A DNA stretch of 64,000 nt from NCBI GenBank assembly GCA_035571835.1, contig DATNBU010000001.1, positions 1-64,000 of the forward strand, in the 5' to 3' direction. Below are positions 2,658 through 19,870 of this stretch, piece by piece. This stretch comes from Candidatus Limnocylindrales bacterium (GTDB lineage: Bacteria > Desulfobacterota > Binatia > UBA1149 > CAITLU01). How positions within the stretch are numbered: position 1 is the stretch's first letter; every line of letters starts with the position of its first letter. Made by a program: the position numbers and the translations under genes. Below the pieces are notes generated by a model, which saw only the letters and a list, made by a program, of their open reading frames with translations, searched no databases and was not told where the DNA came from.

Positions 2658-2732
2658 CTGGTTTCGGTCGCTCCCGCTCCACCTGGTTCCGGTCGCTCCC
2701 GCGTCACCTGGTTTCGGTCGCTCCCGCGTCAC
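2658..2732. repeat. Three 25-bp tandem repeats between two glycosyltransferase genes
   Basis: Three copies of ctggtttcggtcgctcccgc plus gtcac (2658-2682, 2683-2707, 2708-2732), differing at only a few bases. On the transcript each unit holds a GGGAG purine run and a GTGA or GTGG. The repeats fill the gap between the GT4 stop (2736) and the GT2 start (2643). A 25-bp unit changes reading frame from copy to copy, so the repeats are probably not a protein extension. Confidence 0.85.
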
Positions 2733-2735
2733 CGG

Positions 2736-7583: not shown

Positions 7584-9692
7584 TTACAGTTCCTTTTGGA
7601 CGGACGGCTTTTCGCCGTCCTTTCGGACGGACGGCTGGTCGCCGTCCTTTGGTTTGGCGGACGGCTGGTCGCCGTCATTTGCGGCCGACGGCTGGCCGGA
7701 AGGTGGCGGCGCGGCGATCTTCAGCACGTGGCCGTCGTACGGCGCCGGTACCGGAACGCCGAGCAGCGTGAGAATGGTCGGAGCAAGATCGCCGATCGCG
7801 GGGTGCTCGTCGCCGATCTTCACGTTGGAAAGCAGGATGCCGTCGGTCAGCGCGGTATCGGTCGTCGCGTGGTCGCCGCTCCACTTTTTCATGTTGTCTT
7901 CGAACAGGCCTTCGGGCGCGCCGCCGAGCGGCGTCGCCGACGACACGCGGTATCCGGAAGCCATGCCGATCTGCATGTCCTGCCCGTCGCCGAGCCGGTC
8001 GCCCTTCCAGGTCTCCTTGGCCGCATAGACCTTGTCGACGGCCGGCTTGCCGGTCTTCGGATCGATGACCTTCGTCATGCGCTCGCTGATGTCGCGGATG
8101 ACCTGATCGGCTTCCGCGCCCGGCGCGACGATGCCCTTTCCTTCGCGCCCGGCAACGTTGACGTAGATGCCGCCGACGCCGAGCGCATAGGCCTTCGTCT
8201 TCGACCAGTCGACGTCCTGGAGGAACTTCTTGGTCGTCGACTTCGCGCCGCCCTTCAGCGTCATGAAGCCTTCCTGGATGAGCCACGTGTTGACGTTGAA
8301 GCCGCGCCGCCAGCTGTGGAAGCCGTGGTCGCTGATCACGAACAGGATGTCGTCGGCGTCGAGCTTGGCGCGCACCTTGCCGATGATCTCGTCGGCGCGC
8401 TGGTAGGTCTTGAGAATCGAGTCGCCGTACTTGGCTGCCAGCGCCGCGTCGTAGCGCGGATGCTCGGCGTCGAGGAGCCGGTACATCATGTGCGATGTGC
8501 GGTCGGTCTCGACGAACACCGAAACCATGAGGTCCGTATTGCGGTTCTCGAGCTCGTGCAGCGTGATCGCTTCGCTCTCGCGGAACGTATCCCAGATGTC
8601 CTGCATGAACGCTTCCTCGTCGATGCGTTCCTCGTTGAGTCCCCACGTCTCGTGGTTCCAGCCGACGGTCTTGTAGTCGCCGACGGCCTTGACGAGCTCC
8701 TTCGCGTAGCCCGGCGGCTCGGTGACGTCGATCGCCGCGTCGGCCGGATCGTAGTTGATCGGCGACATGTACAGGTGGATCGCAGGCTCGACCTCGAGCA
8801 CGCGGAAGCGCGCCATGCCGGCAATGCTCGACATCTTCGTCACGTCGAAGCTCATCCGGAACCAGTCGCTCCAGCGCCCTGCTTCGACGGTTTCCTTGCG
8901 GCCGGCGAGCTCGATCGTCAGCGCGTCTTTTCCCGAGCGGGAGATCTTCAGTGGAACCGTAAGGCGTTCGCCGTCTTCGGAGAGCGGACCGACCGGACCT
9001 TCGATGATCGTCTCGACGCTGTCGCCGGCGCCGAGCGACAGCACCTTGCCGCCGAGCTCGGGGTTGGCCGCATCGCGCGGGCTGAGATCGCTCGCCCAGT
9101 AGTGAAACGTGCCTTCGCTGCCGCGGATGTCGGGAAGCCCGAGGCCGCCCTGCGCGTAGCTGTGCTGTTCTTTCTCGAGCGGATAGATGCACGGCACGCG
9201 CAGCACGACGCTGCGTTTTCCGGCGCGATCAGCGGTGGTCCAGAACGCTTCGCCGGACATCGTCGTCGTGAACGTCTCCGGTTTCGTCTGGAAAAGTCCG
9301 AACCGGTATTCGGCCTTGTGACTGACTGCACCGGTGCGATCCGGCAGATACGTCTTGGGATCGCGCAGGATGAAATCGAAAATTCCGTGACCGCCGGGAT
9401 TGAGGCCGGTGGTGAACGTGGACCACGCCGTGCACGACGACGGCGGCGTGGTCGTCTCGAGATGCCGGAACGTGCCGGTGCGCATCATCTCGGACATGTT
9501 CGGCAGCTTGGCCTGCCACTGCTCGACGAAGTCGGGATCGACGCCGTCAAAACCGAGCACGACCACGCGGCGGCCCGGCGCGGGGCCGGTGTCGCGCCTC
9601 CCCTCCCCGGAGCCGCAGCCGGCGAGCATCAGGGCCAGAAGGCCGGCGGGCACTACCGCGGCAAACAACACTCGATTCCTGTCCTTCGTCAT
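7584..9692 (-). CDS. Alkaline-phosphatase-family lipoprotein with Ser nucleophile
   Basis: 702 residues from the ATG at 9692; an in-frame TTG one codon earlier is less likely. The signal peptide ends in lipobox LMLAGC (lipidated Cys26). The catalytic domain starts VVVLGFDGVDPDFV (D49). The nucleophile segment PPSSCTAWSTFTTG puts Ser86 in the catalytic position. Other ligands are FVETDRTSHMMYR and VISDHGFHSWRRG. A long insertion around residues 190-330 looks like a beta-rich substrate domain. The C-terminal ~40 residues are a low-complexity repeat of DGDQPSxKxDG, encoded by short tandem DNA duplications. Predicted to act at the outer membrane or in the periplasm on a phosphodiester substrate. 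Confidence 0.85.
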   Translation of the reverse strand: MTKDRNRVLFAAVVPAGLLALMLAGCGSGEGRRDTGPAPGRRVVVLGFDGVDPDFVEQWQAKLPNMSEMMRTGTFRHLETTTPPSSCTAWSTFTTGLNPGGHGIFDFILRDPKTYLPDRTGAVSHKAEYRFGLFQTKPETFTTTMSGEAFWTTADRAGKRSVVLRVPCIYPLEKEQHSYAQGGLGLPDIRGSEGTFHYWASDLSPRDAANPELGGKVLSLGAGDSVETIIEGPVGPLSEDGERLTVPLKISRSGKDALTIELAGRKETVEAGRWSDWFRMSFDVTKMSSIAGMARFRVLEVEPAIHLYMSPINYDPADAAIDVTEPPGYAKELVKAVGDYKTVGWNHETWGLNEERIDEEAFMQDIWDTFRESEAITLHELENRNTDLMVSVFVETDRTSHMMYRLLDAEHPRYDAALAAKYGDSILKTYQRADEIIGKVRAKLDADDILFVISDHGFHSWRRGFNVNTWLIQEGFMTLKGGAKSTTKKFLQDVDWSKTKAYALGVGGIYVNVAGREGKGIVAPGAEADQVIRDISERMTKVIDPKTGKPAVDKVYAAKETWKGDRLGDGQDMQIGMASGYRVSSATPLGGAPEGLFEDNMKKWSGDHATTDTALTDGILLSNVKIGDEHPAIGDLAPTILTLLGVPVPAPYDGHVLKIAAPPPSGQPSAANDGDQPSAKPKDGDQPSVRKDGEKPSVQKEL
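7598..7698. repeat. Imperfect tandem repeats at the 3' end of the lipoprotein gene
   Basis: The core cggacggctggtcgccgtc recurs three to four times with spacing of about 24-33 bases, all in frame. It encodes the charged, Pro/Ser-containing repeats at the protein C-terminus. Similar duplications occur at other gene ends in this window. Confidence 0.75.
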
Positions 9693-13732: not shown

Positions 13733-15151
13733 CTATTCCGGGTTGCCCGCTCCTCCCCGCCCGCGCTTGCCGAAGCGGCTGGCGACCTCGGCCGTCAGCC
13801 GGCGCCAGCGTTCGAAGTCGCTCCGATTGAGGACCAGCGGCGTGTACCACGCGAGGCCCGATTCGCGCAGGAAGAACCCGTAAAGCAGCAGCGCCGCCGC
13901 CGTGTACGACGCGCTCGTTCCGATGGCCGCGCCGAGAATTCCGTAGCGCGGGATCAGCCACATGTTCAGACCGATGTTGCCGCCGAGCGCGATGTAGGCG
14001 GCGATCACGTTGATGACCTGGCGGTCGCGGGCCGTGAAGTCGCGCGACAGCAGCACGTACAGCGACATCATGACGATGCCCCACGAGATCCAGACGAGCG
14101 GCACCGCCGCCGGCTCGTACGCGACTCCGTACAGCCAGACGATCGCGAAGCGCCCGACGAGCGTCAGCACCACCGCCGCGAGCACGGCGATCGCGAGCGT
14201 CTGCCGGCACGCGGCCGCGGTCATCGCGTGCACCTTGTCCTCCGGCATTCCGGCGAGCCGCGGGAACATCGCAAGACCGAGCGATTGCGGAATCGACATC
14301 ATCTGCTCGGCGAACTTCGCGCCGATCGAGTAGAACGCGACTTCCGACGGCGTCAGGTAGAGCGAGCACAGGTAGACGCCGGCCTTGAAGTTGAAGTGCG
14401 ACGCGATGATCTGCAGGTGCGACTTCATCCCGTAGCGCAGCATCCGGTGAAACAGCGGACGGTCGAACGTGAACCGTAGCGGCGTGTCCTTGTGGATCGT
14501 CCAGAACACCCACAGCAGCATCACCGTGTTGAGCGCCACCGACACGCCGAGCGCGCCCGGCAGCCCGAGCCGCAGCCCGATCAGAACCGTGGCCATCAGC
14601 ACCAGCGCGATGACCGACTCGCCCAGCAGCCGCGCGTTGTACACGCGGAAGCGGTCGGTCGCCTGCAGCACGCCGTACAGGTAGCTCTCCATCAGCAGGA
14701 TCGGGATCATCGGACAGATGGCGACGAGTGCCCATAGCGGAACGCCGCGCAGCACGGTCGACAGGATGTACTGGTGGAAAATGAGCACGCCGGCGATCAG
14801 CACGGCGCCGGTGCCGAGACCGAACCAGACTGCGGTCGATGCCACGACCGAAACGTCCTGCTTCTCGCGACGGATGAAGTAGATCGTCGCCTGCGCCTGC
14901 CCGAACTTGGTGAGCGTCGTCAGCGACGCCGGAAACGTCGAGACCAGCGAGAAGATTCCGCGCAGCTCGGGACCGAGCCAGCGTGCGGTGATGACGCCGA
15001 TGATGACGCCGAAGCCCATCTTGGCGAAGATCGTCGCGAGCGTGCCGCCGAAGTCCTCGATCAGGCGGTACAGCGACGAACCCTGCGCGCGCCTGGCCGC
15101 ACGCGCGGGTTGCACGGGTTCGTCGATCGCCTGCCCCACCGACTCGCTCAT
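13733..15151 (-). CDS. Wzx-type polysaccharide flippase (MOP superfamily)
   Basis: 472 residues with about 12-14 hydrophobic helices, the size and layout of O-antigen/EPS flippases. An N-terminal cytoplasmic stretch precedes GTLATIFAKMGFGVIIGVITARWLGPELRG, the classic first helix with a GP turn. Expected to move undecaprenyl-linked repeat units across the inner membrane for Wzy-type assembly. A polymerase (Wzy) was not identified in the window. The ATG at 15151 overlaps the stop of a repeat-encoded leader ORF (ATGA), so translation is probably coupled to it. Confidence 0.9.
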   Translation of the reverse strand: MSESVGQAIDEPVQPARAARRAQGSSLYRLIEDFGGTLATIFAKMGFGVIIGVITARWLGPELRGIFSLVSTFPASLTTLTKFGQAQATIYFIRREKQDVSVVASTAVWFGLGTGAVLIAGVLIFHQYILSTVLRGVPLWALVAICPMIPILLMESYLYGVLQATDRFRVYNARLLGESVIALVLMATVLIGLRLGLPGALGVSVALNTVMLLWVFWTIHKDTPLRFTFDRPLFHRMLRYGMKSHLQIIASHFNFKAGVYLCSLYLTPSEVAFYSIGAKFAEQMMSIPQSLGLAMFPRLAGMPEDKVHAMTAAACRQTLAIAVLAAVVLTLVGRFAIVWLYGVAYEPAAVPLVWISWGIVMMSLYVLLSRDFTARDRQVINVIAAYIALGGNIGLNMWLIPRYGILGAAIGTSASYTAAALLLYGFFLRESGLAWYTPLVLNRSDFERWRRLTAEVASRFGKRGRGGAGNPE

Positions 15152-15261
15152 CCGTCGAGCCTTCTGACCGACTCGCTCATCGCTCGTCTTCTGAACGACT
15201 CGCTCATCGCTCGTCTCCTGAACGACTCGCTCATCGCTCGTCTTCTGAACGACTCGCTCAT
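15148..15261 (-). CDS. Repeat-encoded 37-residue leader ORF upstream of the flippase
   Basis: The ATG at 15261 overlaps the HprK-like gene stop (ATGA), and its TGA at 15150-15148 overlaps the flippase ATG at 15151. The product is three copies of MSESFRRRA followed by MSESVRRLDG: short, basic and with no known function. In-frame ATGs lie at 15234, 15207 and 15180, each preceded by a GGAGACGAGCG-like purine run. It probably arose by tandem duplication of the original HprK-like/flippase junction, because the flippase itself begins MSESV. A coupling device with little peptide function is as likely as a real small protein. Confidence 0.45.
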   Translation of the reverse strand: MSESFRRRAMSESFRRRAMSESFRRRAMSESVRRLDG

Positions 15262-15272
15262 CGCTCGTCTCC
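15149..15272. repeat. Tandem duplication of a translation-initiation module
   Basis: ATGs at 15261, 15234, 15207, 15180 and 15151 are spaced 27, 27, 27 and 29 bases. Each unit carries ATGAGCGAGTCG followed by a purine-rich SD-like stretch for the next ATG. The 29-base last unit changes the frame and places a stop over the flippase start. Confidence 0.9.
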
Positions 15273-16400
15273 GTTTCCGAGGGCGTCGAAGAGCTCGGCG
15301 AGGACTTTTTCGCGCATGAAGGTGACGAGGTCGTTCGATGGCGGCACGTGCAGCGCGAACGACGGCACCAGCTCGGCCAGACGATCCGATGCCGTGGTCT
15401 CGTCGTAGCGACGGGCGCCCGAGACGAGGTCGAGGACTTCGTTCATGATCGAGATACGGCGCATCTCCTTGGCCATCGTGTTGGCGGCCCGCAACCGCGC
15501 CGCGCTTTCGCGAGGAACCAGCGGCTTCAGCTGGAACTCGCTCGAACGCTCGACGTGCAGCAGCACGCCGGCCCGCTGCGGCATCATCTCGATGTCCGAC
15601 GTGCGGTAGGCATCGCGCGCGAACACGCGCTTTTCTCCGGTCTGCGTAAGGCGCGCTGCGCCGGCGCCCGCCAGACGACGGCTGCGCTCGTCGAGCAGCA
15701 GCAGCTCCGGACAGGCCATCACGCGATATCCGTCGTGAAGCAGCAGGTTGTCGGACAGCATGCGGTGATCCGCATCGGCAAGCATCGCGACCGACAGCGA
15801 CGACTTGCCGCAGCCCGGCATTCCGACGAGCACGACGGCGCCGATGCGCGTGGCGACTGCGCTCGCATGCAGCACGTTCCAGCCGGCGCCGCGGCTGAGC
15901 CACCAGAGCACCGGATGGTAGAAGAGATAGTAGAGCAGCGTCGAGAAACGCCGGCCGCGCATCTGCTCGAGCTGCGAGCGATGCCGGATGCGCTGGAGCG
16001 CTTCGGCCCGGCCGCCGGTCGCCAGGTGAAAGAAGTAGCGGCCGGTCACGTCGAGCCGCTCGTCCTTCATGGCGAGCTCCATCTGCAGGTCGGGAAAATC
16101 GTCGATGCGCAGCCACTGCGCGCCGGCTTCTCCGAGGAACAGGTCGCGGTCGGGCCGCCGCGTCCAGATCATCGGATCGAAACCGTCCCCGCCGGACGCG
16201 CCACTTTCCTTGTGGCGCGGCGGCATGCCCTCGCGCCACTGGAGGCGCGAGCGGATGTCGAACTTGCCGCTGTCCGCGACGATCCACGGCTCGAGGGCAG
16301 CCCGCGCGTAGTCGGCGAATGCGGGAAGCTCGCTCTCGATGCGTACGCGTACGCCGTGAAGCTCGAAGCATGCGGCCGGATTGGCGACGATCGCGCTCAT
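15258..16400 (-). CDS. HprK-like P-loop kinase of an EPS locus
   Basis: 380 residues from the ATG at 16400, which overlaps the upstream GT4 stop (ATGA); the frame is open further upstream but without family similarity. Residues 193-201 are the Walker A motif GMPGCGKSS. It is preceded by NVLHASAVA, the His-containing strand of HPr-kinase-like proteins, and followed by LSDNLLLHDG. The N-terminal ~150 residues are an uncharacterised domain. HprK-like proteins phosphorylate Ser or small molecules, but no HPr/PTS gene is visible, so a sugar or unknown protein may be the target. Its place between a glycosyltransferase and the flippase ties it to EPS production. Confidence 0.75.
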   Translation of the reverse strand: MSAIVANPAACFELHGVRVRIESELPAFADYARAALEPWIVADSGKFDIRSRLQWREGMPPRHKESGASGGDGFDPMIWTRRPDRDLFLGEAGAQWLRIDDFPDLQMELAMKDERLDVTGRYFFHLATGGRAEALQRIRHRSQLEQMRGRRFSTLLYYLFYHPVLWWLSRGAGWNVLHASAVATRIGAVVLVGMPGCGKSSLSVAMLADADHRMLSDNLLLHDGYRVMACPELLLLDERSRRLAGAGAARLTQTGEKRVFARDAYRTSDIEMMPQRAGVLLHVERSSEFQLKPLVPRESAARLRAANTMAKEMRRISIMNEVLDLVSGARRYDETTASDRLAELVPSFALHVPPSNDLVTFMREKVLAELFDALGNGDER

Positions 16401-18655: not shown

Positions 18656-19870
18656 TCAATCTCCGGATACGGCGCGGGTTGGGGCAGACTGCGCTTTGGC
18701 GGCCGGCTCGACGTCGCCCGCAGCAGGCTTCGGTGCGGCTTCCCCGTGGGCACGCGTTGCCGAACTCCGCGTCCGCGACCTGGAGGGCTTGCTTGCAGGA
18801 GCAGGCGCAGCGGGCGCTGCACTTCTGACCGGCGAAGCGCCCACGGCCTCCCAGATCCGCGACGTCACGTCCACCACCGCGGCGGCTTCCGCTTCGGTGA
18901 CCGGCGGCGGCGTGCCGCGACGGACAGAGTCGTAGAAACGGCCGATGAGCTCGCCCATGCCGGGATAGAAACGGATCTTGCCGCGCGCGAAGTCGATCGT
19001 GTTCTGCGTGGTCTGTCGTACCAGCTGCCACGCCTCGTCGAGATTCGGCAGCGGCTTCGCGATGATCTTCGGCACCTTGTAGTCGCGGCGCCGCACGATC
19101 GTCATGTTGTTCAGATTGACCTCGACGGTCATGCGCGAGCCGCACAGCTTGAGCGTGTTCATCATCGGCGACGCGTTCATCGAGATCGTCAGGCTGCCGG
19201 TCCGGCCCTGTCCCTGCATGAGGACGCGAAGCTCTTCGATGCGATCGCCGCCTTTCGGTGAGAATGCGACGGCTTCGAGGCGGTCGACCGCACCGAGAAA
19301 GTAGAGCTGCAGGTAAAGCGGATGCGGGACGAGGTCGCCGATGCCGCCGCCGGCCAGCTCGCCGAGCCACCCGCGTTCGCTGGCCACGCCGGCCTGGTAG
19401 CTTTCGATCGCGACCAGATCACCGAGCGCCCCGCTCTCCCACAGATGCCGCGCGACGAGCATCGGCGGATCGAACAGCCGGTTGTGACCTGCGGTAAAGA
19501 ACGTCGAGCCGCGGCGCGCGGCGGCCGACATGAGCTCGACGTCGGCGGACGTCAGCGCGAGCGGCTTTTCGACGAGCGTCGGAATGCCGCGCTCGAGCGA
19601 CATTGCGGCCACGCGCGCATGCGTGTGCGGCGGCGTCAGCACGTGCACGGCATCGGGGCGTTCGATCTCGAGCATCTGTTCGACGTCGCGGTAGACGCGC
19701 TGGATGCCGTGCCGGTCGGCAAGCTCGCTCGACGCGGCGATCGACAGGTCGCAGACCGCAACCGGATCGCCGCCGGCCTTCTTGACGTACGGGAGATGCG
19801 AGTTGGCGATGACTCCGCAACCGATGATTGCGACGCGAAGCCTGCCGTCTGCTCCCTTGCTGGTGCTCAT
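18656..19870 (-). CDS. Gfo/Idh/MocA-family oxidoreductase
   Basis: 404 residues. The Rossmann motif VAIIGCGVIANSHLPYV lies near the N-terminus and LVEKPLALT is the family's EKP signature, with the Lys that orients the substrate. GHNRLFDPPM follows. Expected to oxidise or reduce a sugar or nucleotide sugar with NAD(P). The last ~65 residues are an Ala/Pro/Ser-rich, basic tail not usual for the family and probably disordered. Lies between two other dehydrogenases, suggesting a three-step modified-sugar route. Confidence 0.88.
   Translation of the reverse strand: MSTSKGADGRLRVAIIGCGVIANSHLPYVKKAGGDPVAVCDLSIAASSELADRHGIQRVYRDVEQMLEIERPDAVHVLTPPHTHARVAAMSLERGIPTLVEKPLALTSADVELMSAAARRGSTFFTAGHNRLFDPPMLVARHLWESGALGDLVAIESYQAGVASERGWLGELAGGGIGDLVPHPLYLQLYFLGAVDRLEAVAFSPKGGDRIEELRVLMQGQGRTGSLTISMNASPMMNTLKLCGSRMTVEVNLNNMTIVRRRDYKVPKIIAKPLPNLDEAWQLVRQTTQNTIDFARGKIRFYPGMGELIGRFYDSVRRGTPPPVTEAEAAAVVDVTSRIWEAVGASPVRSAAPAAPAPASKPSRSRTRSSATRAHGEAAPKPAAGDVEPAAKAQSAPTRAVSGD

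Follow-up and report, generated by a model that had tools for sequence, protein, structure and literature searches.

The junction between an HprK-like kinase gene and a polysaccharide flippase gene, in a 64-kb stretch of DNA (hereafter the window), is filled by a tandem array of 27-bp units that forms a 37-codon open reading frame (ORF) overlapping both genes. The array is probably a lineage-specific minisatellite that has been kept as a nearly harmless insertion, with the doubly coupled leader ORF as its by-product. The upstream gene (15258-16400, minus strand) is an ORF of 380 amino acids with a weak and partial match to NCBIfam TIGR04352, HprK-related kinase A (31.6 bits, cut-off 200), and gave no match in a Pfam search at E 0.001. 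The downstream gene (13733-15151, minus strand) is a Wzx/MurJ-like flippase by Pfam, with Polysacc_synt_3, Polysacc_synt and MurJ all exceeding their cut-offs. Polysaccharide-type genes surround the pair according to Pfam and NCBIfam, most of the NCBIfam matches being below cut-off.

Tandem Repeats Finder places the array at 15140-15270 (minus strand), with 4.8 copies covering the whole junction, and its score of 209 is the highest within the window. At periods of 15 or more, 20 order-5 Markov copies of the window reached 64 at most, so this head-to-tail array stands above chance as a minisatellite should. Five minus-strand ATGs (ATG1 to ATG5, at 15261, 15234, 15207, 15180 and 15151) are spaced 27, 27, 27 and 29 bases apart, and the flippase starts at the last of them. 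From ATG1, the repeat-made leader ORF (15148-15261, minus strand) is translated as MSESFRRRAMSESFRRRAMSESFRRRAMSESVRRLDG, which is MSESFRRRA three times followed by MSESVRRLDG. The HprK-like TGA (15260-15258) lies inside the ATGA of ATG1, and the leader's own TGA (15150-15148) lies inside the ATGA of the flippase start. Stop and start on the same strand share bases at both ends of the leader, as in ATGA-coupled gene pairs.

The units hold pieces of both flanking genes. The first three (U1-U3, 15181-15261, minus strand, 27 bp each, delimited from the sequence and by alignment) are near-identical, differing by a single A/G in U2 that is synonymous in the leader frame, and their ends resemble the 3' end of the HprK-like gene (GAGACGAGCG or AAGACGAGCG). 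The fourth (U4, 15152-15180, minus strand, 29 bp) aligns as a diverged copy of the flippase's own first ~31 bases. From the HprK-like 3' end onwards, the surroundings of ATG1 are identical to those of ATG3 over 24 bases; together with the alignment of U4 to the flippase, this means that the units span the junction. The length of U4 is 2 mod 3, so the leader stop falls on the flippase start; likewise, the net insertion is 110 bp, also 2 mod 3, and the ATG1 frame therefore ends exactly on the flippase start to give the 37-codon ORF. A preliminary description of this DNA had reported the same coordinates, ATG spacing and ATGA overlaps, all of which were correct on re-measurement, and its proposal of a tandemly duplicated junction agrees with the two-gene make-up of the units. 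Its argument that copy-number changes of 27 bases keep the leader open also holds, since 27-bp steps leave the net length at 2 mod 3.

To place the array in an evolutionary setting, we compared the junction among relatives that carry the flippase in the same gene order at 56-79% identity (for example, genomes G001-G002 and G004-G012). A contig scan with the single flippase protein returned no relative, and a scan with alignment A1 returned eight loci, labeled Deltaproteobacteria (3), Binatota, Binatia, UBP10, Proteobacteria and uncultured bacterium (1 each). From these labels, the genome itself probably belongs to Binatota. An HprK-like match was present in 11 of 19 relatives' flippase loci and lay upstream of the flippase in 10, and all 10 of these junctions were examined. 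At the HprK-like/flippase junction of these 10 relatives, the array is absent altogether. Taking the first in-frame flippase start, stop and start overlap by four bases (NTGA) in five of them (ATGA in G005 and G006, TTGA in G001 and G002, GTGA in G007), and in G008, G009, G010 and G012 the stop and likely start range from an 8-base overlap to a 4-base gap. In G004 (locus L007) the HprK-like frame is disturbed at the junction. The sole repeat within 200 bases of the 10 junctions is a 12 bp x 2.0 repeat inside the flippase gene of G001; the window has a repeat of the same size at 14989-15012. The nearest relative is G001, from the same genus, whose flippase is 79% identical, and an in-frame ATG 27 bases beyond the TTG of G001 offers an alternative flippase start, which makes an ancestral 4-base overlap probable, not certain. 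The absence of the array from the 10 relatives examined points to an insertion, specific to this lineage, at a junction that is itself old and closely spaced. As the species is represented by one genome, the recency and neutrality of this insertion rest on comparison between species.

These observations suggest the following order of events. The ancestral HprK-like and flippase genes would have overlapped or almost touched, probably by NTGA, and a segment spanning their junction would have been duplicated in tandem and then expanded by 27-bp steps. Because each copy carries the stop-start overlap and adjoining bases, the HprK-like stop would have been kept at the first copy and the flippase start at the last. 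Most likely, ribosomes finishing the HprK-like gene can resume at ATG1, translate the leader and begin again at the flippase, and some may load directly at ATG1 or ATG3. With ribosomes restarting across the leader, the insertion would be cheap. We propose that the minisatellite survived because the stop-start overlap was kept, and that, being nearly harmless, it has persisted in a genome where such arrays are often gained.

The geometry itself can arise in a single step. We simulated one tandem duplication of 20-60 bp, with unit lengths drawn evenly, at 135 array-free real 4-base-overlap junctions from this genome and G001 (8100 trials). A doubly coupled leader resulted in 2681 trials (33.1%), and 99% of those had a unit length of 2 mod 3. 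The other outcomes were an in-frame N-terminal extension of the downstream gene (33.4%), a frame running past the second start (29.5%) and early closure (4.0%). With one third of simulated duplications giving double coupling, the geometry needs no selection beyond survival.

Arrays of this general kind are abundant in the sampled genome. In 58 of its 61 stretches, including the window (1.18 Mb; three stretches under 8 kb were dropped), we found 96 arrays with a period of 15 or more, of which 64 have 21-33-bp units and six are REP-like. Of the 90 that are not REP-like, 15 have a period of 27, the most frequent value. The arrays carry differing sequences in coding and non-coding places, and half (48/96) are mostly non-coding, compared with 14.7% of the sequence. 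The same survey yielded 66 arrays in G001 (37 of 40 stretches, 715 kb) and 14 in G005 (8 of 20 stretches, 160 kb), and with the same settings there were none in 150 kb of Escherichia coli K-12; an order-5 Markov control gave three arrays against 36 in the corresponding real 464 kb (periods from 12). Same-strand junctions are touched by 21 of these 90 arrays in the present genome, where random placement gives 8.4 (21 was reached in 0 of 2000 trials), and by 14 of 65 in G001, against 6.8 expected (10 of 2000 trials), an excess that is partly due to the preference of arrays for non-coding DNA. The same gene pair was adjacent in the other genome's sample for four of 20 junctions with a non-REP array in the present genome and five of 14 in G001, and at none of these nine conserved pairs did both genomes have an array, which indicates that array sites turn over fast. 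By score, the window's junction array ranks 12th of the 96. The survey, the junction preference and the site turnover together make the junction array as such ordinary in this genome.

Two further kinds of repeat were seen along the way. Within the window, a 27/30-bp repeat (7591-7695, minus strand) lies in the predicted C-terminal end of the gene at 7584-9671, adjoining the next gene's start. A REP-like repeat, built around GACAGACAC(C/T)GATTT and the complement or close variants of this sequence, is dispersed separately from the local arrays, with sites in L063 (11047-11103), L065 (6923-6976), L067 (19100-19151), L068 (2615-2678) and L078 (9181-9287).

That arrays recur in the independent genomes G001 and G005 also bears on whether the array is an artefact of assembly, at least in its copy number. 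Tandem repeats are error-prone, the genome is in 46 contigs, and records for seven of the eight named relatives are labeled MAG. Against this, the copies differ from each other (one base in U2, and the diverged U4) and the array is a mere 131 bp. We therefore regard an artefact as highly unlikely, although the exact copy number could be wrong in the assembly.

In the samples of the present genome, G001 and G005, we compared same-strand junctions whose gaps measure 24-300 bases. An ORF overlapping both neighbors by NTGA was found at three of the 31 that have an array and at 10 of the remaining 538 (Fisher p = 0.029), in a test made after the window case was seen and including it; minus that case, the count is 2/30 (p = 0.13). 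When a 12-base tolerance was allowed on each side, bridging was not clearly enriched (4/31 versus 45/538, one-sided p = 0.27). All these counts are approximate, as our home-made gene caller misses or misplaces small genes; the non-array junctions include those with REP-like arrays only, and genuine small genes may be present among their 10 doubly coupled ORFs. The strict excess could be read as selection for coupling, but the duplication mechanism likewise predicts an excess of double overlaps at array junctions.

Besides the window, the doubly coupled array junctions are L170 in G001 and L154 in G005. In L170, a 30 bp x 1.9 array, different in sequence from that of the window, makes a 21-codon ORF with ATGA on both sides (its stop is at 19580 in minus-strand numbering). 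The L154 ORF has 42 codons, ATGA on both sides and its stop at 15898, again in minus-strand numbering, and is made by a 90 bp x 2.0 repeat; by eye, this repeat corresponds to the upstream gene's end, and its two ATGAs stand at non-matching places in the unit, making it a poorer fit to the junction-duplication scheme. Another array in the present genome (L123, contig C4, 5641-5715, minus strand; 27 bp x 3.0) has AAGGAG in every unit and GTG in the first two, and forms an ORF of 24 codons whose end lies 2 bases short of the next open frame's ATG; because this ORF was called as a gene, the junction is excluded from the 31. Within the window, the GT/GT2 junction has a 25 bp x 3.0 array (2658-2733, minus strand) with GTG and GGGAG in its units. 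There, a 30-codon GTG ORF starts 3 bases past the upstream stop and at its end overlaps the GTG start of the downstream gene by 4 bases. G001 has no array at the orthologous junction but does have a bridging ORF there, by eye unrelated in sequence.

The preliminary description had gone further and suggested a slippage-tunable translation relay. In such a relay, the number of 27-bp copies would determine how many ribosomes get to the flippase, and slippage would alter that number usefully. Part of this is plausible as far as can be judged from the sequence: the leader overlaps both neighbors, a geometry that would permit termination-reinitiation, and by analogy with known ATGA coupling a relay could run from the HprK-like stop through the leader to the flippase. 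Phase variation is common in polysaccharide-type genes, among which this pair sits, and copy changes of 27 preserve the frame. The SD energies point the same way in part. They are good at ATG1 and ATG3 (-6.6 and -7.4 kcal/mol), weak at the flippase ATG (-3.4) and almost nil at ATG2 and ATG4 (-1.0). For comparison, the median is -5.25 over 70 genes taken from the window plus four other stretches of the genome, and -2.8 over 200 positions drawn at random in the window. The usual 16S 3' end has one match in the genome. An SD-like run had been ascribed to every unit, and this is true of the runs before ATG1 and ATG3 and fails for ATG2 and ATG4. A weak flippase SD alongside good ones at ATG1 and ATG3 means that the flippase may depend on handed-on ribosomes. 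The tuning itself fares worse. Arrays of other sequence are common in coding and non-coding DNA of the sampled genome, looser bridging shows no clear enrichment, one third of simulated duplications give the same geometry, the leader's codons look non-coding (see below), and the 10 relatives examined do without the array. Moreover, U1-U3 are mutually in frame, so a change in copy number would alter leader length alone, a weak handle on coupling. Beyond the geometry and the weak flippase SD, a tunable switch is unsupported, and we consider it distinctly unlikely. It is likewise unlikely that a broader proposition holds as a whole, namely that in a minisatellite-rich lineage duplicated 4-base-overlap junctions recurrently give birth to doubly coupled small ORFs and that copy number sets downstream ribosome flux.

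The leader might instead encode a functional Ser/Arg-rich small protein. It has 37 codons, a good SD at ATG1 and, as the sole difference among U1-U3, a synonymous one, though one difference is too few to show selection. Its codon score is -13.0 in its own frame, and -16.7 and -3.7 in the other two. Arg codons that are rare in the genome (AGA 0.97, AGG 2.91 and CGA 4.13 per thousand) form a run in each of U1-U3 and a pair in U4, and the ORF matches no family in Pfam at E 0.001 or in NCBIfam at E 0.01. The leader's codons thus look unlike those of a selected protein, and given also its absence from the relatives examined, a small-protein function is very improbable.

Structure in the RNA offers another reading, in which each unit forms a hairpin with the purine run in its loop and the AUG in its stem, and folding of the array gates flippase initiation. 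The array region does fold stably (-65.5 kcal/mol, z -4.17 relative to dinucleotide shuffles, 0 of 200 shuffles as stable), but shuffling destroys the repeat and so probably inflates the z score. The flippase start region (-23.2) proved ordinary: when it was compared with 243 start regions taken across the window and 20 stretches of the same genome, 22% were equally or more stable. We consider gating by structure very unlikely.

A junction minisatellite, as favored here, resembles several known systems without coinciding with any. The closest precedent is the MIRU of mycobacteria, described in a 2025 review (PMC12548453, citing Supply 1997) as apparently mobile elements that insert at start codons and contain an internal ORF coupled at -4 nt; the same source holds that such insertions likely have minimal impact on expression, and that short ORFs may serve solely to deliver the ribosome to the next gene. 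The window array shares with MIRUs, as presented there, the position of the repeat at a junction and, as geometry only, an internal ORF coupled downstream at -4 nt (the leader TGA within the flippase ATGA). It differs in that MIRUs are found in many mycobacteria, whereas the window unit is built from its two flanking genes. The copy number of MIRUs varies from strain to strain. A 20-mer from the core of the window unit has four exact matches in the genome, all in the junction array, and four others with 3 mismatches each. Dispersed homologous copies of the MIRU kind were therefore not found, since no exact core copy lies elsewhere in the genome, and a unit built from its flanking genes indicates an origin different from that of MIRUs.

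The array also has the likeness of bacterial VNTR minisatellites. Its 27-bp unit and 4.8 copies are of usual minisatellite length and number, and the sampled genome holds many further tandem arrays; what sets it apart is that it spans a stop-start overlap on both sides. The 4-base overlap is in turn common to termination-reinitiation pairs of the ATGA type. According to PMC6728339, 13 of 14 overlapping gene pairs tested in Haloferax volcanii and E. coli showed strict translational coupling. As portrayed there, however, ATGA pairs join two ordinary genes, whereas the window has a repeat-made, putatively coupled 37-codon ORF between two overlaps. In the open-access literature, no paper on locally duplicated overlapping junctions was among the matches listed, where the MIRU review alone proved relevant, and none was found on tandem repeats in Binatota.

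The case suggests a simple rule: duplicating a segment that spans an NTGA overlap yields a doubly coupled ORF at once and leaves both genes intact, provided that the length gained is 2 mod 3. This rule could explain why minisatellites are tolerated at gene junctions, and it is a caution against reading every such leader as an evolved regulator.
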